Below are positions 738 through 31,150 of a stretch of 31,150 nt of DNA, piece after piece. Position 1 is the stretch's first letter. Every line of letters starts with the position of its first letter. The notes below the pieces were generated by a model that ran no database searches, was not told the origin of the DNA, and saw only the letters and a program-made list of their open reading frames with translations. The DNA is from a virus. Made by a program: the position numbers and the translations under genes. The stretch covers positions 1 through 31,150 of IMG/VR virus record IMGVR_UViG_3300037516_000118, one strand, 5' to 3'.

Positions 738-774
738 GGTTACAAAAGTAGTATAATTTAGTTTATAAGTATGA
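738..774 (+). promoter_or_regulatory. Late start element, copy A
   Basis: One of three related 37-bp elements (738-774, 20293-20329, 29165-29201). All carry GG(T/G)TACAA at the left and AGTTTATA at the right, and all place the start-codon ATGA at the same distance. In this copy GGTTACAAAAGT is 738-749 and AGTTTATAAGTATGA is 760-774. It begins directly after a strong terminator, so transcription must restart here. Its similarity to the other copies stops at the start codon. I infer a phage late promoter giving a leaderless or nearly leaderless mRNA; a translation signal is the alternative. Confidence 0.6.
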
Positions 775-3473: not shown

Positions 3474-4998
3474 TTATACAGCGAAAGCCGCAAAACCTGC
3501 TGCATTAGATTTACTACCTATATTGGAGTGGAATGGCGCAACGTATGACAATAAAACTATTACGGGCAGTAATTTATATACTGATACATTAATAACGTCT
3601 AATAACCTTTCTGATTTAACTAATGCTACAACAGCTAGAACTAATTTAAGCTTAGGAACTTTAGCTACTCAAAACGGTACATTTTCAGGCAGTTCTAGCG
3701 GAACGAATACGGGTGACCAAATAATTAGTGACGCTACAATTACGACTACTGATATTACTACCAATAATTTTTCTACTACTAAACATGGTTTTGTACCTAA
3801 AGGAACTAATGTAGGTAATTATCTTAAAGACGATGGTACATGGGCGGCAGTTTCAGGCGGTGGTAGTGCTACTGGCATTTGGGGAATATCAAATTCAAGT
3901 GGCGTTTACACTTATTATGCAACTTATCAATTAGCGGTGGCGGCGGCTACAAGTGGACAAACTATTGAAATGTTCGGTTCACAAACTGAATCAACGGCTA
4001 ATCATATCCTTAAGAACGGTGTTAATATTAATTATAACGGATATACTTTAACTTTTACAACTGGGTTTGGATTAATTGATAATAATGTTGCTTGTGAAGT
4101 TCAATTATTAAATGGAGAAATTAAAAAAGGAGTTAGTGGTCAAATTGCTATAACATTATCAAACTCTTCAACTATTATAAGAGGTAACGTATTAGTTAAT
4201 AGTTCTGTTGCTGGTTCTTTTGGATTATACGGACCCGCTACAATTTATGGATTACAATTCAAAGGAAATACTTGTTTATATTTATATTCAGCTAGTGCAA
4301 AAGGAAAGGCTTACGGAGTTACTATTAATTGTGTTGGTGGCAATGCTATTGGTTATGGCGAGATTTATAATTCAATAATTAATTCAACAGCTACAGATGG
4401 TAGTTATGCTGTTCAATATGTAACCGTTATTGCTAATTGTAGTGGCATAATAAATGGATGTATTTCATTTTATATGCAAGGAACACAAATCAGAAATAGC
4501 TCGTTTACAAATTTAACATCTTCTACTTGTACATTTGCATCTCAAGATGATAATTTTATTGACAATTGTTATTTTAGATGTTCGGCTTCTGTTTTTGCGA
4601 CAGGTAATGCGACAGGCAAAGGATTAATGAGTAACACTAAAATCTCTGGAGCTACTTATCTATGGCAAGCCGCTGGATATATTATAAACATGGATAAATG
4701 TACTTTAATTTCAGATACTTATTGGAATTTTTATTTGTCTAACGGTGCGACATTTAATTTCTGTACATTCATTGTCAGAGATACAGTAAATTCATTTGAA
4801 GATTTAGTTTCTGGAACTGTAAAATTAAACAATTGTAAATTTCAATTATTCAATGCTGCAGCTTATCCTGTTTATGGGGCAAGTGCAAAAAACTTCACAG
4901 CATCAAATAACACATATAACACAACAAACTTCCAATTGAATATGACAAACTTACAAACATATACAGCAGATGCAGTTGGTAATCAAAGATTAAACTAA
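3451..4998 (+). CDS. Tail fibre / receptor-binding protein with beta-helix
   Basis: The protein has 515 residues. The first ~45 (KLSSYTAKAAKPAALDLLP) look like a short virion anchor. A Ser/Thr/Gly-rich shaft follows, including NLSDLTNATTARTNLSLGTL and SSGTNTGDQ, a motif widely shared among phage fibres. From about residue 175 to the end, repeated short strands with N-C and N-G turns (for example I-N-C-V-G-G, I-I-N-G-C-I, F-I-D-N-C-Y) indicate a right-handed parallel beta-helix. It probably binds or degrades a cell-surface glycan. No catalytic residues can be assigned by eye. It lies between head genes and lysis genes, away from the tape measure. Confidence 0.75.
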   Translation: MADKKLSSYTAKAAKPAALDLLPILEWNGATYDNKTITGSNLYTDTLITSNNLSDLTNATTARTNLSLGTLATQNGTFSGSSSGTNTGDQIISDATITTTDITTNNFSTTKHGFVPKGTNVGNYLKDDGTWAAVSGGGSATGIWGISNSSGVYTYYATYQLAVAAATSGQTIEMFGSQTESTANHILKNGVNINYNGYTLTFTTGFGLIDNNVACEVQLLNGEIKKGVSGQIAITLSNSSTIIRGNVLVNSSVAGSFGLYGPATIYGLQFKGNTCLYLYSASAKGKAYGVTINCVGGNAIGYGEIYNSIINSTATDGSYAVQYVTVIANCSGIINGCISFYMQGTQIRNSSFTNLTSSTCTFASQDDNFIDNCYFRCSASVFATGNATGKGLMSNTKISGATYLWQAAGYIINMDKCTLISDTYWNFYLSNGATFNFCTFIVRDTVNSFEDLVSGTVKLNNCKFQLFNAAAYPVYGASAKNFTASNNTYNTTNFQLNMTNLQTYTADAVGNQRLN

Positions 4999-5604: not shown

Positions 5605-6063
5605 ATGATAACAACTGCTGAATGTATTAAAAGATACGGAAAGCCAAACGAGGGCGGGGTCGGTTATTTAGAAAGTATTACTTTGCCTTATCCAATGGTT
5701 TATGATGGCAAGCCTGTGAACAAAATGAGATGCCATAGGCTTGTTAAACAAAACTTTTTAGACGTGTTTAATGAGTTACTAAGTGTTTACACGTATCCTG
5801 AAATTGTACGTTTAGGGATAGATAAGTTTGGCGGTTGTTTCAATTACAGAAAAATGCGAGGTGGTACAGAGTTTAGCCGCCATTCATGGGGCATAGCAAT
5901 TGATTTAGACCCTCAAAGAAACCAATTAAAAGAAACTAATAAGACTGCTAGATTTGCACGTCCTGAGTACGCTAAAATGATTGACATATTCTATAAACAT
6001 GGATTTGTTTCTTTAGGTAGGGAAAAGAACTACGATTGGATGCACTTTCAGATAAAGCGTTAA
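5605..6063 (+). CDS. M15-family peptidase (VanY/endolysin-like endopeptidase)
   Basis: The protein has 152 residues and contains the zinc-peptidase signature SxHxxGxAxD (S91, H93, G96, A98, D100) plus the third metal ligand in DWMHF (H147), at the spacing known for VanX/VanY and phage L-Ala-D-Glu or D-Ala-D-Ala peptidases. It would cut peptide stems of peptidoglycan. There is no signal peptide, so release depends on the holin genes just upstream. It is one of two wall-degrading enzymes in this block; the other is the lysozyme at 6739. Confidence 0.88.
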   Translation: MITTAECIKRYGKPNEGGVGYLESITLPYPMVYDGKPVNKMRCHRLVKQNFLDVFNELLSVYTYPEIVRLGIDKFGGCFNYRKMRGGTEFSRHSWGIAIDLDPQRNQLKETNKTARFARPEYAKMIDIFYKHGFVSLGREKNYDWMHFQIKR

Positions 6064-17422: not shown

Positions 17423-17474
17423 GAATAATGGATATATTTGAAACTAAAATACTACTTTTACATTTTAACTATCA

Positions 17475-17502
17475 TTGTAGAGCGAAAAAAAACGTATCTT
17501 TG
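17475..17502 (+). promoter_or_regulatory. Promoter for the sigma-like gene
   Basis: TTG (17475-17477), 17 bp, TATCTTTG (17495-17502) fits the Bacteroidota form with slightly short spacing. The start point would be near 17509, 23 bp before the ATG at 17532. Confidence 0.6.
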
Positions 17503-17531: not shown

Positions 17532-18065
17532 ATGAGTAATAAATTAATGATAGAGCTATCAAAGTATCATTCTGAATGGTGTAAGATTGTGCGGTCATTT
17601 GGTGTAAGCTCCGATACTTGCGAGGACGTAGTTCAAGATATGTATTTAAGACTAAACAAATTGTCATCTTACGAAAAGCTATTTAAAAACGGTGTGCTAT
17701 CAAAGTCTTATGTTTGGATTACTTTACGAAATTTGCAGTTCCAACAATTTAAACAAGATAACTTAACTATTTCACTAAGTAACTATGATATACAAATAAA
17801 TGAAAATTGTACATTAGATGAGGTTAAAGCGCGTTCTAATTTCAATGTAAAGATTAACAAAGAAGTAGTCAAGTGGAATATGTACGACCAACTACTATTT
17901 TCTATCTACATGAACGATTCAATTTCAATGCGTGATATTTCAAAAGGTAGTGGAATAACTTTGAGGAGTATACAAAGGACGTTAGAGAATTGCTATCGTA
18001 GGTTAAGGCAAAATGTAGGTGAAGACTATCAAGATTTAATAAATAAAGATTACGAACTAATATAA
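17532..18065 (+). CDS. RNA polymerase sigma-factor-like protein
   Basis: From the ATG at 17532 the protein has 177 residues; the TTG one codon earlier is a less likely start. The N-terminal part has a sigma region 2-like pattern (W-C-K-I-V-R-S-F-G...C-E-D-V-V-Q-D-M-Y-L-R-L). The C-terminal part has a region 4-like helix-turn-helix (S-M-R-D-I-S-K-G-S-G-I-T-L-R-S-I-Q-R-T). The size suits an ECF-type factor. It could direct host polymerase to the three late start elements in this genome. It has its own promoter and precedes the terminase genes. A DNA-binding regulator that is not a true sigma factor remains possible. Confidence 0.7.
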   Translation: MSNKLMIELSKYHSEWCKIVRSFGVSSDTCEDVVQDMYLRLNKLSSYEKLFKNGVLSKSYVWITLRNLQFQQFKQDNLTISLSNYDIQINENCTLDEVKARSNFNVKINKEVVKWNMYDQLLFSIYMNDSISMRDISKGSGITLRSIQRTLENCYRRLRQNVGEDYQDLINKDYELI

Positions 18066-18115
18066 TGGCAAAAATCATAAATAAACACTATAAATAACTA
18101 ATATAATGGCAAAAA
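18055..18115 (+). repeat. 20-bp direct repeat duplicating a start site, with a mini-ORF
   Basis: AACTAATATAATGGCAAAAA occurs at 18055-18074 and again at 18096-18115. The second copy carries the start of the next gene. The first gives a 10-codon frame (ATG 18065 to TAA 18097, MAKIINKHYK) that starts at the stop codon of the sigma-like gene. It is either a recent duplication scar or a coupled leader peptide. Confidence 0.7.
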
Positions 18116-18471
18116 GAAGAGTAAGCAAAGGATTAGGTGACACTGTAGAAAAAATATTACAAGCTACGGGAGTAGATAAATTAGTTCACTTTATTGCAGG
18201 TGAGGATTGTGGATGCGAGGAGCGAAAAGAAAAACTTAACAAGTTATGGAAGTATAAAAAAATAGAATGTTTAATTGAATCAGAACATGAATTTCTTACA
18301 GATTTTTTCAAGACGTTTAAAAACCAAGTTTCACCAGCAGAGCAAGGTTATTTACTCAAGATTTATAACCGTGTATTTAATGATAAACAGATGTCTACAA
18401 GTTGCGGAGACTGTTGGAGGGATATTCTTAAGGATTTGAGATTATTACACGCTGAATATAAACAGGATTAA
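18106..18471 (+). CDS. GLGDTVEK-type hypothetical protein with Cys pairs
   Basis: The 121-residue protein starts M-A-K-R-R-V-S-K-G-L-G-D-T-V-E-K-I and has E-D-C-G-C-E-E-R-K-E-K-L-N near residue 33 and T-S-C-G-D-C-W near 98. The C-x-C and C-x-x-C pairs could bind a metal or form a redox site. It is a recurrent neighbour of terminase genes in Bacteroidota phages by my recollection; function unknown. Its start lies in a duplicated sequence. Confidence 0.75.
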   Translation: MAKRRVSKGLGDTVEKILQATGVDKLVHFIAGEDCGCEERKEKLNKLWKYKKIECLIESEHEFLTDFFKTFKNQVSPAEQGYLLKIYNRVFNDKQMSTSCGDCWRDILKDLRLLHAEYKQD

Positions 18472-18820: not shown

Positions 18821-18992
18821 AGGAAGTGTAATTACATTCAGGGTAAAAAGCGAGTGTGAATACAACGGGTTAAAATTAGACGTAGATGTGAGTGGAACAG
18901 ACCCGCATAAATTCTTAGATGATTACGTTTGCAGCGGTAAACTACGTGAAGAGATGAATGAGTGGTTTCAAACATTACCTAAAAAAGATTGA
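18795..18992 (+). CDS. Small hypothetical protein between the terminase genes
   Basis: The 65-residue protein has a beta-rich start (V-I-T-F-R-V-K-S-E-C-E-Y) and ends E-E-M-N-E-W-F-Q-T-L-P. Not recognised. It overlaps the small terminase by 26 bp and the large terminase by 4 bp (TTGA). Confidence 0.7.
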   Translation: MKYKILKTKGSVITFRVKSECEYNGLKLDVDVSGTDPHKFLDDYVCSGKLREEMNEWFQTLPKKD

Positions 18993-20290
18993 GATTATTA
19001 GTAAAGCAGGAACACGCAACTTACTATCTAAACGATAGGACAACTGAAGAAGTTTTATATGGAGGCGCTGCGGGTGGTGGTAAATCCGCTTTCGGTTGCC
19101 TTTGGCTTATATCTATGTGCCAAAAATACGCAGGGACAAGGTGGCTAATGGGTAGGGCTAAACTAAAAACATTAAAAGAAACTACACTAAACACTTTCTT
19201 TGAACTATCAGCTGCTTTGAATATTGGAGCTGAATACAACTACAATGCACAATCTAATATTATCTATTTTAATAACGGCAGTGAAATAATACTCAAAGAT
19301 TTATTCCTATATCCTTCAGACCCTAACTATGATAGTTTAGGTTCACTTGAGATTACGGGAGCTTTCATTGATGAATGTAATCAGGTAGTATATAAAGCAT
19401 GGCAGATTGTTAAGTCTAGGATTAGATACAAGCTAAACGAATATGATTTAATGCCAAAGATTTTAGGCACATGTAACCCTGCAAAGAATTGGACGTATAA
19501 GGAGTTCTATTCCCCTGATAAGAATAATACCTTACTACCTTACAGAAAGTTTATACAAGCCCTCCCAAAGGATAACCCTCACTTGCACCCATCTTACTTA
19601 AAATCGTTATTACAGTTAGATAAGAATAGCAAGCAAAGATTGTACTACGGCAATTGGGAGTATGACGATGACCCTAGCACGCTTATAGACCAAGATAGTA
19701 TTATAGACTATTTTAACCCTATTCACATTAAACGTGAAGGACAAAAGTACATGACTATTGACGTTGCTCGTATGGGTAAAGATAAAACGGTTTTTAGAGT
19801 GTGGCATGGTTGGCTTGTCATTGATAGATTTGAGATTGCTAAAAGTGGTTTAGATGTGGTCCTGGAAAAACTATATGAACTACAAAGAAAACACGGTATA
19901 AGCTCAAGTAATGTGATAGCAGATGAGGATGGAGTCGGGGGTGGTTTAATAGATTTCACTAAGCCAAAGATAAACGGGTTTGTAAATAATAGTAAAGCAT
20001 TGAACGGAGAAAACTACGATAATCTAAAAAGCCAATGTTCAATATTAATGGCTAAAAAAATAGTATTAAAAGAAGTAGGTGAGATTTGCAATGATGGAAA
20101 TGTACGTGATATTACAAGTGAGGAAATGGAGCAAATTAAAATGAAGGATATAGATAAAGACGGGCGTTTGTCAATCATTCCAAAGGATAAAATTAAAGAA
20201 ATGATAGGGCGTTCACCTGATGAGTGGGATAGTATAATGATGAGATACTGGTTTGAGATTAAACCAATCGGTAATTACGGTATTCGATAG
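18989..20290 (+). CDS. terL: Large terminase subunit (TTG start)
   Basis: The 433-residue DNA-packaging motor has an N-terminal ATPase with Walker A GGAAGGGKS (25-33), Walker B ending F-I-D-E-C-N (D128, E129) and a C-terminal RNase H-like nuclease with D258 in TIDVARMGKDKT, D312/D314 in A-D-E-D-G-V-G-G-G, and a third acidic motif near D-E-W-D-S. It cuts and pumps DNA into the prohead. The start is TTG at 18989, overlapping the previous stop (TTGA), which fits translation by coupling. The tail module follows directly; the portal is far away at 1096. Confidence 0.95.
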   Translation: MRLLVKQEHATYYLNDRTTEEVLYGGAAGGGKSAFGCLWLISMCQKYAGTRWLMGRAKLKTLKETTLNTFFELSAALNIGAEYNYNAQSNIIYFNNGSEIILKDLFLYPSDPNYDSLGSLEITGAFIDECNQVVYKAWQIVKSRIRYKLNEYDLMPKILGTCNPAKNWTYKEFYSPDKNNTLLPYRKFIQALPKDNPHLHPSYLKSLLQLDKNSKQRLYYGNWEYDDDPSTLIDQDSIIDYFNPIHIKREGQKYMTIDVARMGKDKTVFRVWHGWLVIDRFEIAKSGLDVVLEKLYELQRKHGISSSNVIADEDGVGGGLIDFTKPKINGFVNNSKALNGENYDNLKSQCSILMAKKIVLKEVGEICNDGNVRDITSEEMEQIKMKDIDKDGRLSIIPKDKIKEMIGRSPDEWDSIMMRYWFEIKPIGNYGIR

Positions 20291-20292
20291 GG

Positions 20293-20329
20293 GGGTACAA
20301 AAGTTAAATTAATTAGTTTATAAGTATGA
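20293..20329 (+). promoter_or_regulatory. Late start element, copy B
   Basis: GGGTACAAAAGT (20293-20304) and AGTTTATAAGTATGA (20315-20329) match copy A (738-774) with only a few changes in the spacer. The ATG at 20326 is at the same position in the motif. It is inferred to be a phage late promoter for the tail module. Confidence 0.6.
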
Positions 20330-22041: not shown

Positions 22042-23096
22042 GTAATAGAATATTTGCACGAAGCCCTTACATCATTACAATTAATGAAACGGGGCAAACG
22101 AGTAGTAAGATTGATATATTTTTATGGAACGGTACGGGTTCTGCACCCACTTCACCAACTTATACGCTAAGTAAAGCTATACCGAGCAGTACAGCACCCT
22201 CAACTTACTACGATGTTTCACCTTATATTCGTGAATATATAAACTTTAATTTACGTCCTATAAATTACAATACTACGGGTACTACTTTAGGGTCAACTGC
22301 TTACTGTAATGTAAAAATAAAACGGTATAAAAATACGGGAACATTACTAGACACTACCACTTACTATGCTTTTGATGGCTATGCTGAATATTCAGACGGA
22401 TATAACTACGATAGAGGGCAATATTTGTTAGATGAAGGCACTTATTACTACCATTACGATAGTGATTCAACTTATATAACTACTAAAGCGGGGGATTTAA
22501 CATTAGAAGTTACTGCGGGTCAGAAGATAGTGTGGACAAATTTAGTTACAAATGCAGCTTATACGGCTACATTCCCTTCAAGTGGTATGAAAACTTGCCC
22601 TAGAGTATATGGCTTGTATTGGTCATCTGGTAATAAGTTAGAGATAAAAACAAGTGCTGATGCCGTGTTAAGAACATATACTTTCATGCCTAGAGAAGAG
22701 TGTAAATATCAAGTTTTACCTATTGACTTTGTGAATAAATATGGAGCATGGCAACGGGAATTTTTATTCAAGGCTTCAAATGATAGTTTTAACATGACTA
22801 ATCAGGAGTTTAATCTTATGAACAGTTCAATAACATCTTTTAAAGAATTTGAAGGACAAAAGAAAACTTTTAATGCTAACGGTAAGGATTCAATTAAATG
22901 CAATACAGGATGGGTTAAAGAGTCGTTTAAAGAAACTATCAAAGAGATTATGTTAAGCGAAAAAATAATACTTAACGATTTACCCGTAACGATTAAGACT
23001 AAACAAACTGAATTATTTAAATCTATAAATACAAAAAATATTAATTATTCTTTAGAGTTCGATTATTCATTTGATACTATCATGTCTATTATATGA
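22038..23096 (+). CDS. Tail structural protein
   Basis: The 352-residue beta-rich protein has an N-terminus (R-S-P-Y-I-I-T-I-N-E-T-G-Q) and organisation familiar from tail/baseplate genes of Bacteroidota phages, with Y-D-V-S-P-Y-I-R-E-Y-I in the first third and C-terminal Y-S-L-E-F-D-Y-S-F-D. A distal tail or baseplate component is inferred. It overlaps both neighbours by 4 bp. Confidence 0.6.
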   Translation: MSNRIFARSPYIITINETGQTSSKIDIFLWNGTGSAPTSPTYTLSKAIPSSTAPSTYYDVSPYIREYINFNLRPINYNTTGTTLGSTAYCNVKIKRYKNTGTLLDTTTYYAFDGYAEYSDGYNYDRGQYLLDEGTYYYHYDSDSTYITTKAGDLTLEVTAGQKIVWTNLVTNAAYTATFPSSGMKTCPRVYGLYWSSGNKLEIKTSADAVLRTYTFMPREECKYQVLPIDFVNKYGAWQREFLFKASNDSFNMTNQEFNLMNSSITSFKEFEGQKKTFNANGKDSIKCNTGWVKESFKETIKEIMLSEKIILNDLPVTIKTKQTELFKSINTKNINYSLEFDYSFDTIMSII

Positions 23097-25471: not shown

Positions 25472-25617
25472 TACAAAAAATAATAGAACTACTAGCAATT
25501 GATGAATTTTACGGACAAAGTGAATTGATTGATATTGCAAAAGGAAAGTATAAGATACAGAATACAATAGTCGATAAGTATAAACAAAAGAAACGTATTA
25601 GAAATGGCAGAAAGTAA
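25468..25617 (+). CDS. Small hypothetical protein before the tape measure (49 aa)
   Basis: ATG at 25468 overlaps the previous stop by 4 bp (ATGA); the TAA at 25615-25617 overlaps the tape-measure start by 14 bp. The product is a short helical protein with a basic end (Y-K-Q-K-K-R-I-R-N-G-R-K). Position directly before the tape measure would suit a small assembly factor; that is inference. Confidence 0.62.
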   Translation: MIQKIIELLAIDEFYGQSELIDIAKGKYKIQNTIVDKYKQKKRIRNGRK

Positions 25618-27760
25618 AGTAATTGACTTAGAAGTAAAAACAAACTTAGGCAGTTTAAAGTCACAATTACGGGAAGCGCAAGCGGAGGTTGCTAAGATGT
25701 CGGAAAAGTTTGGAGCGGCTTCGATTGAGGCTTCCAATGCTGCAAAGGCTGCTGGTATTCTTAAAGATAAAATTGGAGATGCTAAGGCGTTAACTGATGC
25801 GTTCAATCCTGATGCTAAGTTTAAATCTGTAACGGCTTCGATTAGTGGTGTAGCGGGTGGATTTGCTGCGTACGAAGGTGCAATGAATTTAGTAGGTGTT
25901 AAGTCTCAAGAGGTAGAAGCAGCATTGTTGAAAGTTCAAAGTGCTATGGCTATTTCACAAGGTTTGCAATCTGTTGGAGAAAGTATAGACAGTTTTAAGC
26001 AATTAGGGGCAGTAATTAAATCTACTTCTATTTTTCAAGGTATATATAACTTTATACAAACGGGTAGTTTTAAAGCTGCTAAAGATACTACTAACGCAGT
26101 AATAGAGGAAACGGTAGCCACTAAGTTGCAAGGTTCTGCAATGGTAGTAACATCTACTAGCACGGGTATTGCAACGGTTGCTATGAAAGCTTTTAGAGCT
26201 GCAATGATAGCAACGGGAATAGGTGCGTTAATAGCGGGGCTTGTTATGGCGGTGCAGGCGTTAAGTTCATTTGGAGGTGAAACTGAATCTACTGAAGATA
26301 AGCAAAAAAGATTAGACGCTGCATTAGCCGCTACTAATAAAACCTTAGATGCTCAAAAATTAGCTTACGACCGAGCAGGTGATGCTTCAAAATTTGCAAA
26401 TGATAAACAGTTAATTGATGCTTTAAATGCGGGAGCAAGTGAAAAGGAATTAAACGCTATAAAATTAAAAGGTTCTAAAGATAGATTAGCTATTATAAAA
26501 GCTGAATACGATAAGACTAAAGAAAATGTGCTTACAATGTATTCTGATTCAAAAATTAGCGCAGCTCAAGTAAACGCATTATTAGTAGCTAGAAATCAAG
26601 CAGGTAAAAAATACGCTGATGAACTTATCAATCTTGAGATGTCTCAAGCTGAAGCTAAGAATGCAAGTATAAAGGCAGCACAAACAAAGCAAGATGAAGC
26701 TAATAAAAAGAATAGAGAAGCTAATAAAGCTCACAACGATAAGAAAAAAGCAGACGATGCAAAACACCTTGCAGATTCAGCTAAGGCAATAGAAGATAAT
26801 AGGATTGCTATACATAATAGCGAGGTTGGATTCTTTGAAGCTGAAATTGCATCTAATGATAAATTAAGTAAAAAAGCTTTTGAAGCACAAAAAGGATTAT
26901 TACTAGAAAATAGAGATTTTGCCCTAACAGAATTAAAATTAACTGAAGGACAAAAAGAAGCTATTAAGGCTAAATATATTGCAGACGATATACAGCTACA
27001 AAAAGACCATGACTTAGCCGTAAAAGAAGCCGCGCAAAAAGTAGATGAAGATATATATAAAAGTAAAAAAGGATTTATAGAGGGTGCAATAAGTGATGAT
27101 GAAAAAAACCTACAATTTAAAAAAGATTTATTATTAGTTGAAAGAGATTTTACATTATTAAATACTGAATTAACTGAAGGTGAAATTTTCGCTATTAAAC
27201 AAAAATATGCTAAGGACGTTGCTGATTTAGATAAAGCTGAAATTGTACAAAAACAAGAGGGACAAAAACAAAAGCTAGAAATGGCGGTTCGAGCGTTTAG
27301 TATATTACAAGATGCGACTACCCTATTCACTGCTAAAAACGATAAAGATGCACGTAATCAATTTAAAATAAACAAAGCTTTATCTTTAAGTTCTGCAATT
27401 GTTAACACGGCTTTAGGGGTTACAAGTGCTTTGAAGATGCCTATTGAACTATTCCCCGGGCAAAGATTTGTAGAAGCTGCTTTAGTAGGTGCTGCGGGTG
27501 GTGTTTCTATTGCTAAAATTGCAGGAACTCAATATGCTGCTGCAGGCGGTGGTGGTTCAGGTGGTGGTGGTGGTGGTAGTGGTGGTGGTGGTTCTACTCC
27601 TGCTGCTCCACAAAGCGCGCCCAACTTTAACTTAGTAGGTGCAACGGGTTTAAATCAATTAGATATGCTAGGCAAACCAATACAAGCGTTTGTTGTTGGC
27701 GGTGAAGTTACAACTTATCAAGAGTTAGAACGCAATAGGTTACGAAATGCAACTTTATAA
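25604..27760 (+). CDS. Tape measure protein
   Basis: The 718-residue, Ala/Lys/Glu-rich protein has coiled-coil segments at both ends of the middle region and a hydrophobic block (about residues 195-220, A-M-I-A-T-G-I-G-A-L-I-A-G-L-V), as usual for tape measures. It sets tail length and threads through the tube; at about 0.15 nm per residue the tail would be near 100 nm. Residues ~400-550 contain two diverged ~77-residue repeats (L-L-L-E-N-R-D-F-A-L-T-E and L-L-L-V-E-R-D-F-T-L-L-N). A GGT-repeat-encoded poly-Gly/Ser linker lies near residue 650. Confidence 0.88.
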   Translation: MAESKVIDLEVKTNLGSLKSQLREAQAEVAKMSEKFGAASIEASNAAKAAGILKDKIGDAKALTDAFNPDAKFKSVTASISGVAGGFAAYEGAMNLVGVKSQEVEAALLKVQSAMAISQGLQSVGESIDSFKQLGAVIKSTSIFQGIYNFIQTGSFKAAKDTTNAVIEETVATKLQGSAMVVTSTSTGIATVAMKAFRAAMIATGIGALIAGLVMAVQALSSFGGETESTEDKQKRLDAALAATNKTLDAQKLAYDRAGDASKFANDKQLIDALNAGASEKELNAIKLKGSKDRLAIIKAEYDKTKENVLTMYSDSKISAAQVNALLVARNQAGKKYADELINLEMSQAEAKNASIKAAQTKQDEANKKNREANKAHNDKKKADDAKHLADSAKAIEDNRIAIHNSEVGFFEAEIASNDKLSKKAFEAQKGLLLENRDFALTELKLTEGQKEAIKAKYIADDIQLQKDHDLAVKEAAQKVDEDIYKSKKGFIEGAISDDEKNLQFKKDLLLVERDFTLLNTELTEGEIFAIKQKYAKDVADLDKAEIVQKQEGQKQKLEMAVRAFSILQDATTLFTAKNDKDARNQFKINKALSLSSAIVNTALGVTSALKMPIELFPGQRFVEAALVGAAGGVSIAKIAGTQYAAAGGGGSGGGGGGSGGGGSTPAAPQSAPNFNLVGATGLNQLDMLGKPIQAFVVGGEVTTYQELERNRLRNATL

Positions 27761-27771
27761 ATTATATAGAT

Positions 27772-29164: not shown

Positions 29165-29201
29165 GGTTACAATAATAAATTAATAAAGTTTATAGTTATG
29201 A
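29165..29201 (+). promoter_or_regulatory. Late start element, copy C
   Basis: GGTTACAATAAT (29165-29176) and AGTTTATAGTTATGA (29187-29201) match copies A and B, with the ATG of the next gene at the same position in the motif. It would drive the scaffold-like and major capsid genes separately from the protease. Confidence 0.58.
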
Positions 29202-30143: not shown

Positions 30144-31097
30144 ATGGCTACAACAGCAACAATTACGACTACATATGCTGGTCAAGATTCAAAAATGTGG
30201 GTAAAAGCTGCTCTATTGAGCGGTAACACATTATCAAATGGGGGTATGACTATTATGCCTAACATCGCGTACAAAACTACGCTTCACAAACTTGCAACTG
30301 ATGGTCTTTTAAAAGATGCAACTTGCGACTTTACTGCAACGTCAACTGTAACTATTACAGAAAGACAATTAACACTTGAGCCTTTCCAAGTAAATTTGCA
30401 ACTTTGTAAAAAAGACTTTTTATCTTCATGGGGAAGCGAAGAAATGGGATTTTCTGCTCATAAAGTTATGGCTAAATCTTTCCAAGATTACCTATTAGCT
30501 TACGTAACAGAGAAAGTTGCTGCTTCTGTAGAGACTGCTATTTGGGTAGGTGCAAACGCTACTTCAGGTCAAATTGATGGTATTTCTACTTTGCTTGCTG
30601 CTGATGCTGCTTTACCTTCTGCTAATGAAGTTGCTGGAACTACTGTAACTTCTGTAAATGCTATTGCTGAATTAGGCAAAATTGTAGATGCTATACCTGC
30701 TGCATTGTACGGTAAAGAAGATTTAAGAATTTACGTTTCTCAAAACATTGCTAAGGCTTATGTTAGAGCGTTAGGTGGTTTTGTTGCTGCTGGTGTTGGT
30801 GCTAATGGTACTGAAAACAAAGGGACTCAATGGTACAATAACGGTGAACTTTCTTTTGATGGTATTCCATTATTCGTAGCAAACGGATTAGCTGCTAATA
30901 CTGCTATTGCTGCTCAAACTTCAAACTTGTTTTTCGGTTGTGGATTGCTTGCTGATACTAACCTTGTGAAAGTTTTGGACATGTCTGATTTGGACGGCTC
31001 AGATAATGTAAGATTGATTTTAAGAGCTTCTTACGCGGTTAACTATCATTCAGTTTCTGATATCGTAACTTACGGAATTACGAACGCTGCGAATTAA
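30144..31097 (+). CDS. Major capsid protein
   Basis: The 317-residue protein fits an HK97-fold capsid subunit: an N-terminal arm, an E-loop-like region (about residues 55-85, T-S-T-V-T-I-T-E-R-Q-L), a helix-rich P-domain with Q-D-Y-L-L-A-Y-V-T-E-K-V (114-125), and a C-terminal A-domain with L-R-I-Y-V-S-Q and G-I-P-L-F-V-A-N-G-L. It is encoded after the protease and scaffold-like genes and is followed by the strongest terminator in the window, as expected for the most abundant protein. The window ends are inside the 3' end of this gene. Confidence 0.85.
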   Translation: MATTATITTTYAGQDSKMWVKAALLSGNTLSNGGMTIMPNIAYKTTLHKLATDGLLKDATCDFTATSTVTITERQLTLEPFQVNLQLCKKDFLSSWGSEEMGFSAHKVMAKSFQDYLLAYVTEKVAASVETAIWVGANATSGQIDGISTLLAADAALPSANEVAGTTVTSVNAIAELGKIVDAIPAALYGKEDLRIYVSQNIAKAYVRALGGFVAAGVGANGTENKGTQWYNNGELSFDGIPLFVANGLAANTAIAAQTSNLFFGCGLLADTNLVKVLDMSDLDGSDNVRLILRASYAVNYHSVSDIVTYGITNAAN

Positions 31098-31150
31098 TTA
31101 AATTAAATTATAAACTTAAAAGGGTGGTGCAATATACGCCACCCTTTTTT
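31024..31150. repeat. Terminal direct repeat (right copy)
   Basis: Identical to 1-127; see the left copy. Joining the two gives a circle of 31,023 bp. Confidence 0.95.
31118..31150 (+). terminator. Intrinsic terminator after the major capsid gene (right copy)
   Basis: Same hairpin as 95-127: GGGTGGTG (31122-31129) with CGCCACCC (31137-31144), AAAA/TTTT extension and a T run that reaches the window end. Confidence 0.9.

Follow-up and report, generated by a model that had tools for sequence, protein, structure and literature searches.

Sigma factors that phages encode for late transcription are, as such, classic and already well known. The late promoters of phage T4 consist of TATAAATA, and we know of no description of them as leaderless. 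In T4 (gp55) and SPO1 (gp28/gp34), phage sigma factors serve the middle and late genes (PMC9429907). The system described here is similar in that a phage protein is proposed to bring the host polymerase, by way of short promoters of its own, to structural genes; it differs in that the protein is of the ECF type and the promoter is bipartite and ECF-like. The jumbo phage AR9 likewise has a short, phage-specific late motif containing AACA (AACA-N6-TA), although this is read by the phage's own multisubunit polymerase and gives rise to leaders of 26-491 nt (PMC5312081). For ECF sigma factors the solved initiation complex of Mtb sigma-H provides the reference geometry, with a -35 box of GGAACA, a -10 box of G-11 T-10 T-9 and a best spacer of 17 (PMC6411747). 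The phage system resembles sigma-H in its small two-domain sigma, AACA-like -35 box, GTT at -11 to -9 and near-fixed spacer; it differs in being phage-encoded, in a -35 of (GGTT)ACAA rather than GGAAC, in a spacer of 16 instead of 17, and in a start codon that would coincide with +1 (PMC6411747).

Bacterial leaderless genes similarly show a -10-like signal about 10 nt before the ATG, and a survey found them to be rare in Bacteroidetes/Chlorobi (1 of 37 genomes, 2.4%; PMC3160421). The Bacteroidetes host promoter consensus is TTTG/TAnnTTTG, and in F. johnsoniae 4-5 nt separate the box from the transcription start while leaders average 33 nt (PMC6847099). Our search of the literature found neither an ECF-type sigma with its own promoter set in Bacteroidota phages nor a late regulon with promoters built onto the start codon.

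Elements abutting start codons in the window

The stretch analysed here, referred to as the window, is a complete virus record (G000) of 31,150 bases; given its 127-base direct end repeat, the record represents a circular map of about 31.0 kb. The window most likely derives from a Bacteroidota phage, judging by its matches: in DNA sequence its TerL gene matches Cellulophaga phage phi10:1, the Nonlabens phages P12024S/L give matches to its portal and tail proteins, and a scan of host genomes with the sigma profile described below returned four MAG contigs only (Psychroflexus, Bacteroidetes). The features relevant to the argument are as follows.

1-127 and 31024-31150: direct end repeat, 127 bases
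707-737, + strand: intrinsic terminator (hairpin and U run) abutting element A
738-770, + strand: candidate late promoter element A; -35 GGTTACAA (738-745), -10 AGTTTATA (760-767)
1096-2874: portal (PHROG match, E 3e-88)
17433-17502, + strand: two host-type -7 boxes upstream of the sigma gene; TATATTTG (17433-17440) and TATCTTTG (17495-17502)
17532-18065, + strand: phage ECF-type sigma factor by profile, fold and PHROG; proposed reader of the elements
18989-20290: TerL
20293-20325, + strand: candidate late promoter element B; GGGTACAA ... AGTTTATAAGT
27738-27771, + strand: possible degenerate fourth element; GGTTACGA ... ATTATATAGAT, before ATG 27772
29165-29197, + strand: candidate late promoter element C; GGTTACAA ... 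AGTTTATAGTT

A sequence-only reading of the window had described three copies of a start element with shared sequence and a fixed register to the ATG. We recovered these at the same positions as one ungapped 37-nt family, the other two copies being 84% and 76% identical to A. When anchored on the ATG, the three copies agree in 20 of 33 columns and the best pair in 27 of 33, compared with maxima of 17 and 25 columns, respectively, in 40 first-order shuffles. A gap-tolerant pattern matched the record exactly three times, always on the + strand, while the reversed pattern gave no matches in the same record. Furthermore, a matrix built from the three elements and their close copies scored them at 33.7-42.9 bits, with the next best window position at 11.6, and scanning both strands of the window with it gave no further copy of comparable strength. 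Similarity stops at the start codon, as had been claimed, with 10-15 of 30 matches between copies in the following 30 nt, which is about chance level.

Element A ends at ATG 771, the start of a 110-aa gene that opens the portal operon; element B follows the TerL stop and precedes ATG 20326, in the tail operon; and element C runs up to ATG 29198, ahead of the presumed capsid genes. The earlier assignment of the three starts to portal, tail and capsid therefore describes the operons correctly but not their first genes, which encode products of 110, 228 and 113 aa and precede the portal, tail-type genes and presumed capsid, respectively. The strong terminator said to lie immediately ahead of copy A was also found (a hairpin with a U run, -15.3 kcal/mol, z = -5.2), and a T run occupies its place in most orthologous loci of relatives. 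The TAnnTTTG box, the -7 element of the host primary sigma, is absent inside all three elements, again as previously noted, and a sigma-70 promoter scan gave no excess above shuffles. A weaker, degenerate fourth site may exist at 27738-27771, overlapping the end of the gene at 25604-27760; a clear element occupies the orthologous site before the 27772 gene in 14 of 18 sigma lineages.

A phage ECF-type sigma and its association with the elements

The product of 17532-18065, previously regarded as sigma-like, is by profile and predicted fold an ECF-type sigma. It has the composition of this class, namely sigma regions 2 and 4 only within about 150-200 aa. A 14-member profile of the family (A1) matches the ECF factors SigL (E 8e-9) and SigW (9e-5), and 10 of the 14 members match the PHROG "RNA polymerase sigma factor" (to E 7e-10); the Pfam match of the window protein as a single sequence falls below the cut-off. 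Foldseek with an AF2 model (mean pLDDT 78) placed sigmaE 1or7, SigL 6dv9 and SigH first with a probability of 1.00, at whole-chain TM values that are low (0.3-0.4), probably because the relative placement of the domains differs. The two host-type boxes upstream of the gene are consistent with earlier synthesis of the sigma by the host polymerase. Directly after the sigma gene lies a 121-aa gene (18106-18471) with orthologs in 32 of 32 sigma-bearing and 2 of 11 sigma-less genomes, whose product could conceivably be a sigma partner or anti-sigma.

The sequence-only reading had suggested looking for the motif in related phages, where it does recur before orthologous late genes with the same ATG anchoring. 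Close relatives, with nearly identical TerL or portal, carry the element at the same places, and copy C is kept in them although the gene behind it differs (at the N-terminus, and in length, about 113-138 versus 188-192 aa), which indicates that it is the element and not the gene that is conserved. Phages whose TerL is 74-88% identical have a different sequence at the same place, once more abutting the ATG, and in several distant genomes the local version recurs a second time, at the ortholog of the pre-portal gene (G002 at 5960 and 25480, and G006 at 22238 and 33669, are examples). A sigma-like gene lies upstream of TerL in the element-bearing distant phages and was not found in the other distant relatives examined. 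The sigma proteins of relatives are only about 20-47% identical, yet their diverged elements stay at the same genes, with ACAA near -30 and, taking the A of the ATG as reference, GTT at exactly -11 to -9.

To quantify this association, orthologs of window genes were gathered from 32 sigma-bearing and 11 sigma-less genomes, and sigma lineages were clustered at 70% identity, although related genomes are still not independent of each other. The bipartite element precedes the ortholog of the 771 gene in nearly all sigma-bearing relatives that keep this gene (26 genomes, 20 lineages). A position weight matrix was trained on this promoter, leaving out the whole sigma lineage of the test genome, and used to rank all ATGs of each genome (several hundred to about 1,100, roughly 800). 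The ATG was among the top ten in 19 of 20 lineages for the 771 gene, 16 of 18 for 20326, 14 of 18 for 27772 and 4 of 11 for 29198, compared with 0-3 lineages for eleven control genes (portal, 2878, 21077, 21526, 22038, 23093, tape measure, capsid, sigma, 18106 and TerL). The highest scores belong to genes that open structural operons, and those of internal late genes, of TerL and of the sigma gene are at background level. At gene starts there were 58 sites of at least 9 bits in the 32 sigma-bearing genomes and none in the 11 sigma-less ones, which are mostly more distant phages, only G016 keeping the orthologous genes without a sigma. Additional sigma contigs outside the training set, mostly short fragments, carried such a site in 22 of 53 cases, as opposed to 1 of 33 unrelated contigs.

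The elements share the geometry of ECF promoters. The GTT starts exactly at -11 in 16/20, 14/18, 14/18 and 4/11 lineages (771, 20326, 27772 and 29198) and in 0-1 for controls, ACA lies at -30 or -29 with a spacer of 16 nt, and T occupies -1 in 19/20, 16/18 and 14/18 lineages. Moreover, when the 771 and 20326 promoters are compared, their -10 regions are more alike within genomes (9.8/14) than between them (7.0/14; permutation P < 2e-4), a likeness to which shared ancestry contributes; the -35 showed no such effect (P 0.11), and a coding control was weak (P 0.05). Such concerted drift of the -10 within genomes is what would be expected if one factor read both promoters. The co-occurrence of element and sigma across about 20 lineages fits the proposed tie to the 17532-type protein, and the earlier interpretation of the elements as phage-specific late promoters is supported in every part that could be checked. 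Our analysis adds to the earlier reading the ECF class of the promoter (AACA-N16-GTT), the likely degenerate fourth site and a cultured phage with the same system.

Several candidates were set aside during these searches. About half or more of the 79 matches in an exact-pattern scan of IMG/VR fell in unrelated phages, lacked GG before TACAA and mostly preceded ORFs of a few codons, and were attributed to chance in coding sequence, as was an element-like match in L137, a contig without a detected sigma. Looking de novo for ATG-anchored repeats by pairwise comparison gave too much noise inside individual genomes, and the ortholog-based test was used instead. One contig listed as sigma-less (L128) in fact bears the sigma.

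Initiation at the start codon and alternative readings

The family geometry (AACA or ACAA, a 16-nt spacer, and GTT at -11 to -9 relative to the A of the ATG) places GTT in the same register as in the sigma-H promoter, so that +1 would fall on the A of the ATG and leaderless late mRNAs are predicted, with the 5' end at the A of the AUG or within about 2 nt of it. The window copies have the same 16-nt spacer but lie 1 nt closer to the ATG than the family norm. Under the sigma-H register, +1 of these copies would be the T of the AUG unless start-site selection shifts by 1 nt, and the window +1 may thus be the A of the ATG with a spacing one base shorter than that of sigma-H. In the same genomes most host-type TAnnTTTG boxes stand 21-24 nt ahead of the ATG, while the ECF motif ends 7 nt before it (50 cases).

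In the explanation that we favour, the host RNA polymerase with the host primary sigma would first make the phage ECF-type sigma from TAnnTTTG promoters, after which the host core polymerase carrying the phage sigma would initiate at the three elements, perhaps four. Region 4 of the sigma would read the -35 box (GGTTACAA; family core ACAA) and region 2 the -10 box (A/C-GTT-A/T), and RNA would begin at the A of the start codon or no more than about 2 nt away, giving leaderless late mRNAs. We consider this explanation as a whole very probable; reading by this particular sigma, firing late in infection and the exact 5' end are the parts that we infer.

Two other readings would keep the elements as promoters. 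In one, the phage sigma would read the promoter but the message would have a short leader, through a true start codon further downstream or initiation several nt before the ATG. The choice of transcription start site is flexible by 1-3 nt, and the window copies are offset by 1 nt from the family norm, as such a reading would allow. However, the distance from GTT to the ATG varies by no more than 1 nt in almost every lineage, the ends of orthologous proteins align at these ATGs, and only 3 nt separate AGTTTATA from the ATG in the window, a geometry with which a leader beyond a few nt is hard to reconcile; we regard a short leader as unlikely. Slightly less likely still is that the elements belong to a host alternative (ECF) sigma or a variant of the host primary sigma, the phage sigma doing something else. 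Bacteroidota do have many ECF sigmas of their own, and one genome with the phage sigma (G019, below) shows no element in the 27.5 kb covered, but the element is unlike TTTG/TAnnTTTG, it tracks the phage sigma across 32 genomes, 11 sigma-less relatives lack it, and its -10 drifts between lineages while staying in concert within genomes, as expected of a private factor.

Far less probable is an element that works at the RNA level, by enhancing translation or as a leader bound by a regulator, on transcripts coming from upstream. Its A/T-rich sequence and position against the start codon would suit such a role in a phylum that tunes translation through leader sequence (PMC6847099), yet a strong terminator stands directly before copy A, the internal late genes of the same operons lack the element, and neither ECF-promoter geometry nor co-occurrence with a sigma gene fits an RNA signal. 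Least probable of all is chance similarity or a recombination junction between gene modules; although the elements lie at operon borders and copy C stays in close relatives while the gene after it differs, the similarity exceeds that of shuffled controls, and divergence of the sequence across lineages with retention of position and core is unlike a junction.

Broadly, we lean towards a still wider proposal, in which a large group of Bacteroidota phages would use ECF sigmas of their own, promoters fused to the ATG and truly leaderless late mRNAs as a coupled switch of transcription and translation. Given the rarity of leaderless genes in this phylum and the 33-nt leaders of F. johnsoniae, late phage messages may be translated differently; if so, they would enter translation by a route rarely used by the mostly leadered messages of the host. 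The family also offers roughly 20 natural sigma-promoter pairs for studying the evolution of ECF specificity, possible orthogonal promoters for Bacteroidota genetics, and a simple marker for the late operons of uncultured phages.

A cultured phage, exceptions and host-type starts

The same arrangement was seen in P12024S, one of the cultured Nonlabens phages P12024S and P12024L (JQ823122, JQ823123; Inhavirus), with a homologous sigma upstream of TerL, and is thus directly testable. In the marine phage P12024S (L350) the sigma homologue is P12024S_33, and seven ACA(A)-N14/15-CGTTA elements, one of them before the pre-portal gene, abut the ATGs at 179, 3031, 5412, 21280, 23961, 25201 and 26802. 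With P12024S left out of training, the matrix ranked 3031, 5412, 21280 and 23961 first to fourth among 1066 ATGs, and all four are annotated gene starts. Unlike the window, these cultured phages have a different gene content and a -10 of CGTTAATATA, and their TerL overlaps with the next gene, which lacks an element. The link was found through the portal and tail proteins; when cultured phages were searched directly by tblastn, neither the window sigma nor the 771 gene gave a match.

One incomplete genome departs from the pattern. G019 (L209, L210) combines a sigma that is 98% identical and a shared early module with a foreign structural module, and no such element occurs in its 27.5 kb, a contig that ends before TerL and leaves the tail promoter outside its coverage. 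Instead, TAnnTTT(A/G) boxes stand 3-4 nt ahead of the ATGs of its structural genes. G019 may be a recombinant whose sigma now serves fewer promoters, or the sigma may not always be paired with the element. In a 7-kb fragment with no sigma found within it (L157), positions 4608-4659 hold a terminator followed by GGTACAG...CAGTTATAAAGGT-ATG, before an ortholog of the tail gene; the element looks convincing, and the sigma region may simply have been cut off.

In the sigma-less G016 a host-type box, TATATTTG, lies seven nt before the ATG of the tail gene, so starts that are nearly leaderless may also occur outside the sigma system. In the sigma-bearing genomes, the distance of exactly 4 nt from TAnnTTTG box to ATG forms a small peak of 13 starts, including those of two sigma genes (L203 19578 in G006 and L314 11047 in G025), and 6 starts have the box at 5 nt in sigma-less phages. 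These positions suggest that some leaderless starts arise from host-type promoters too.
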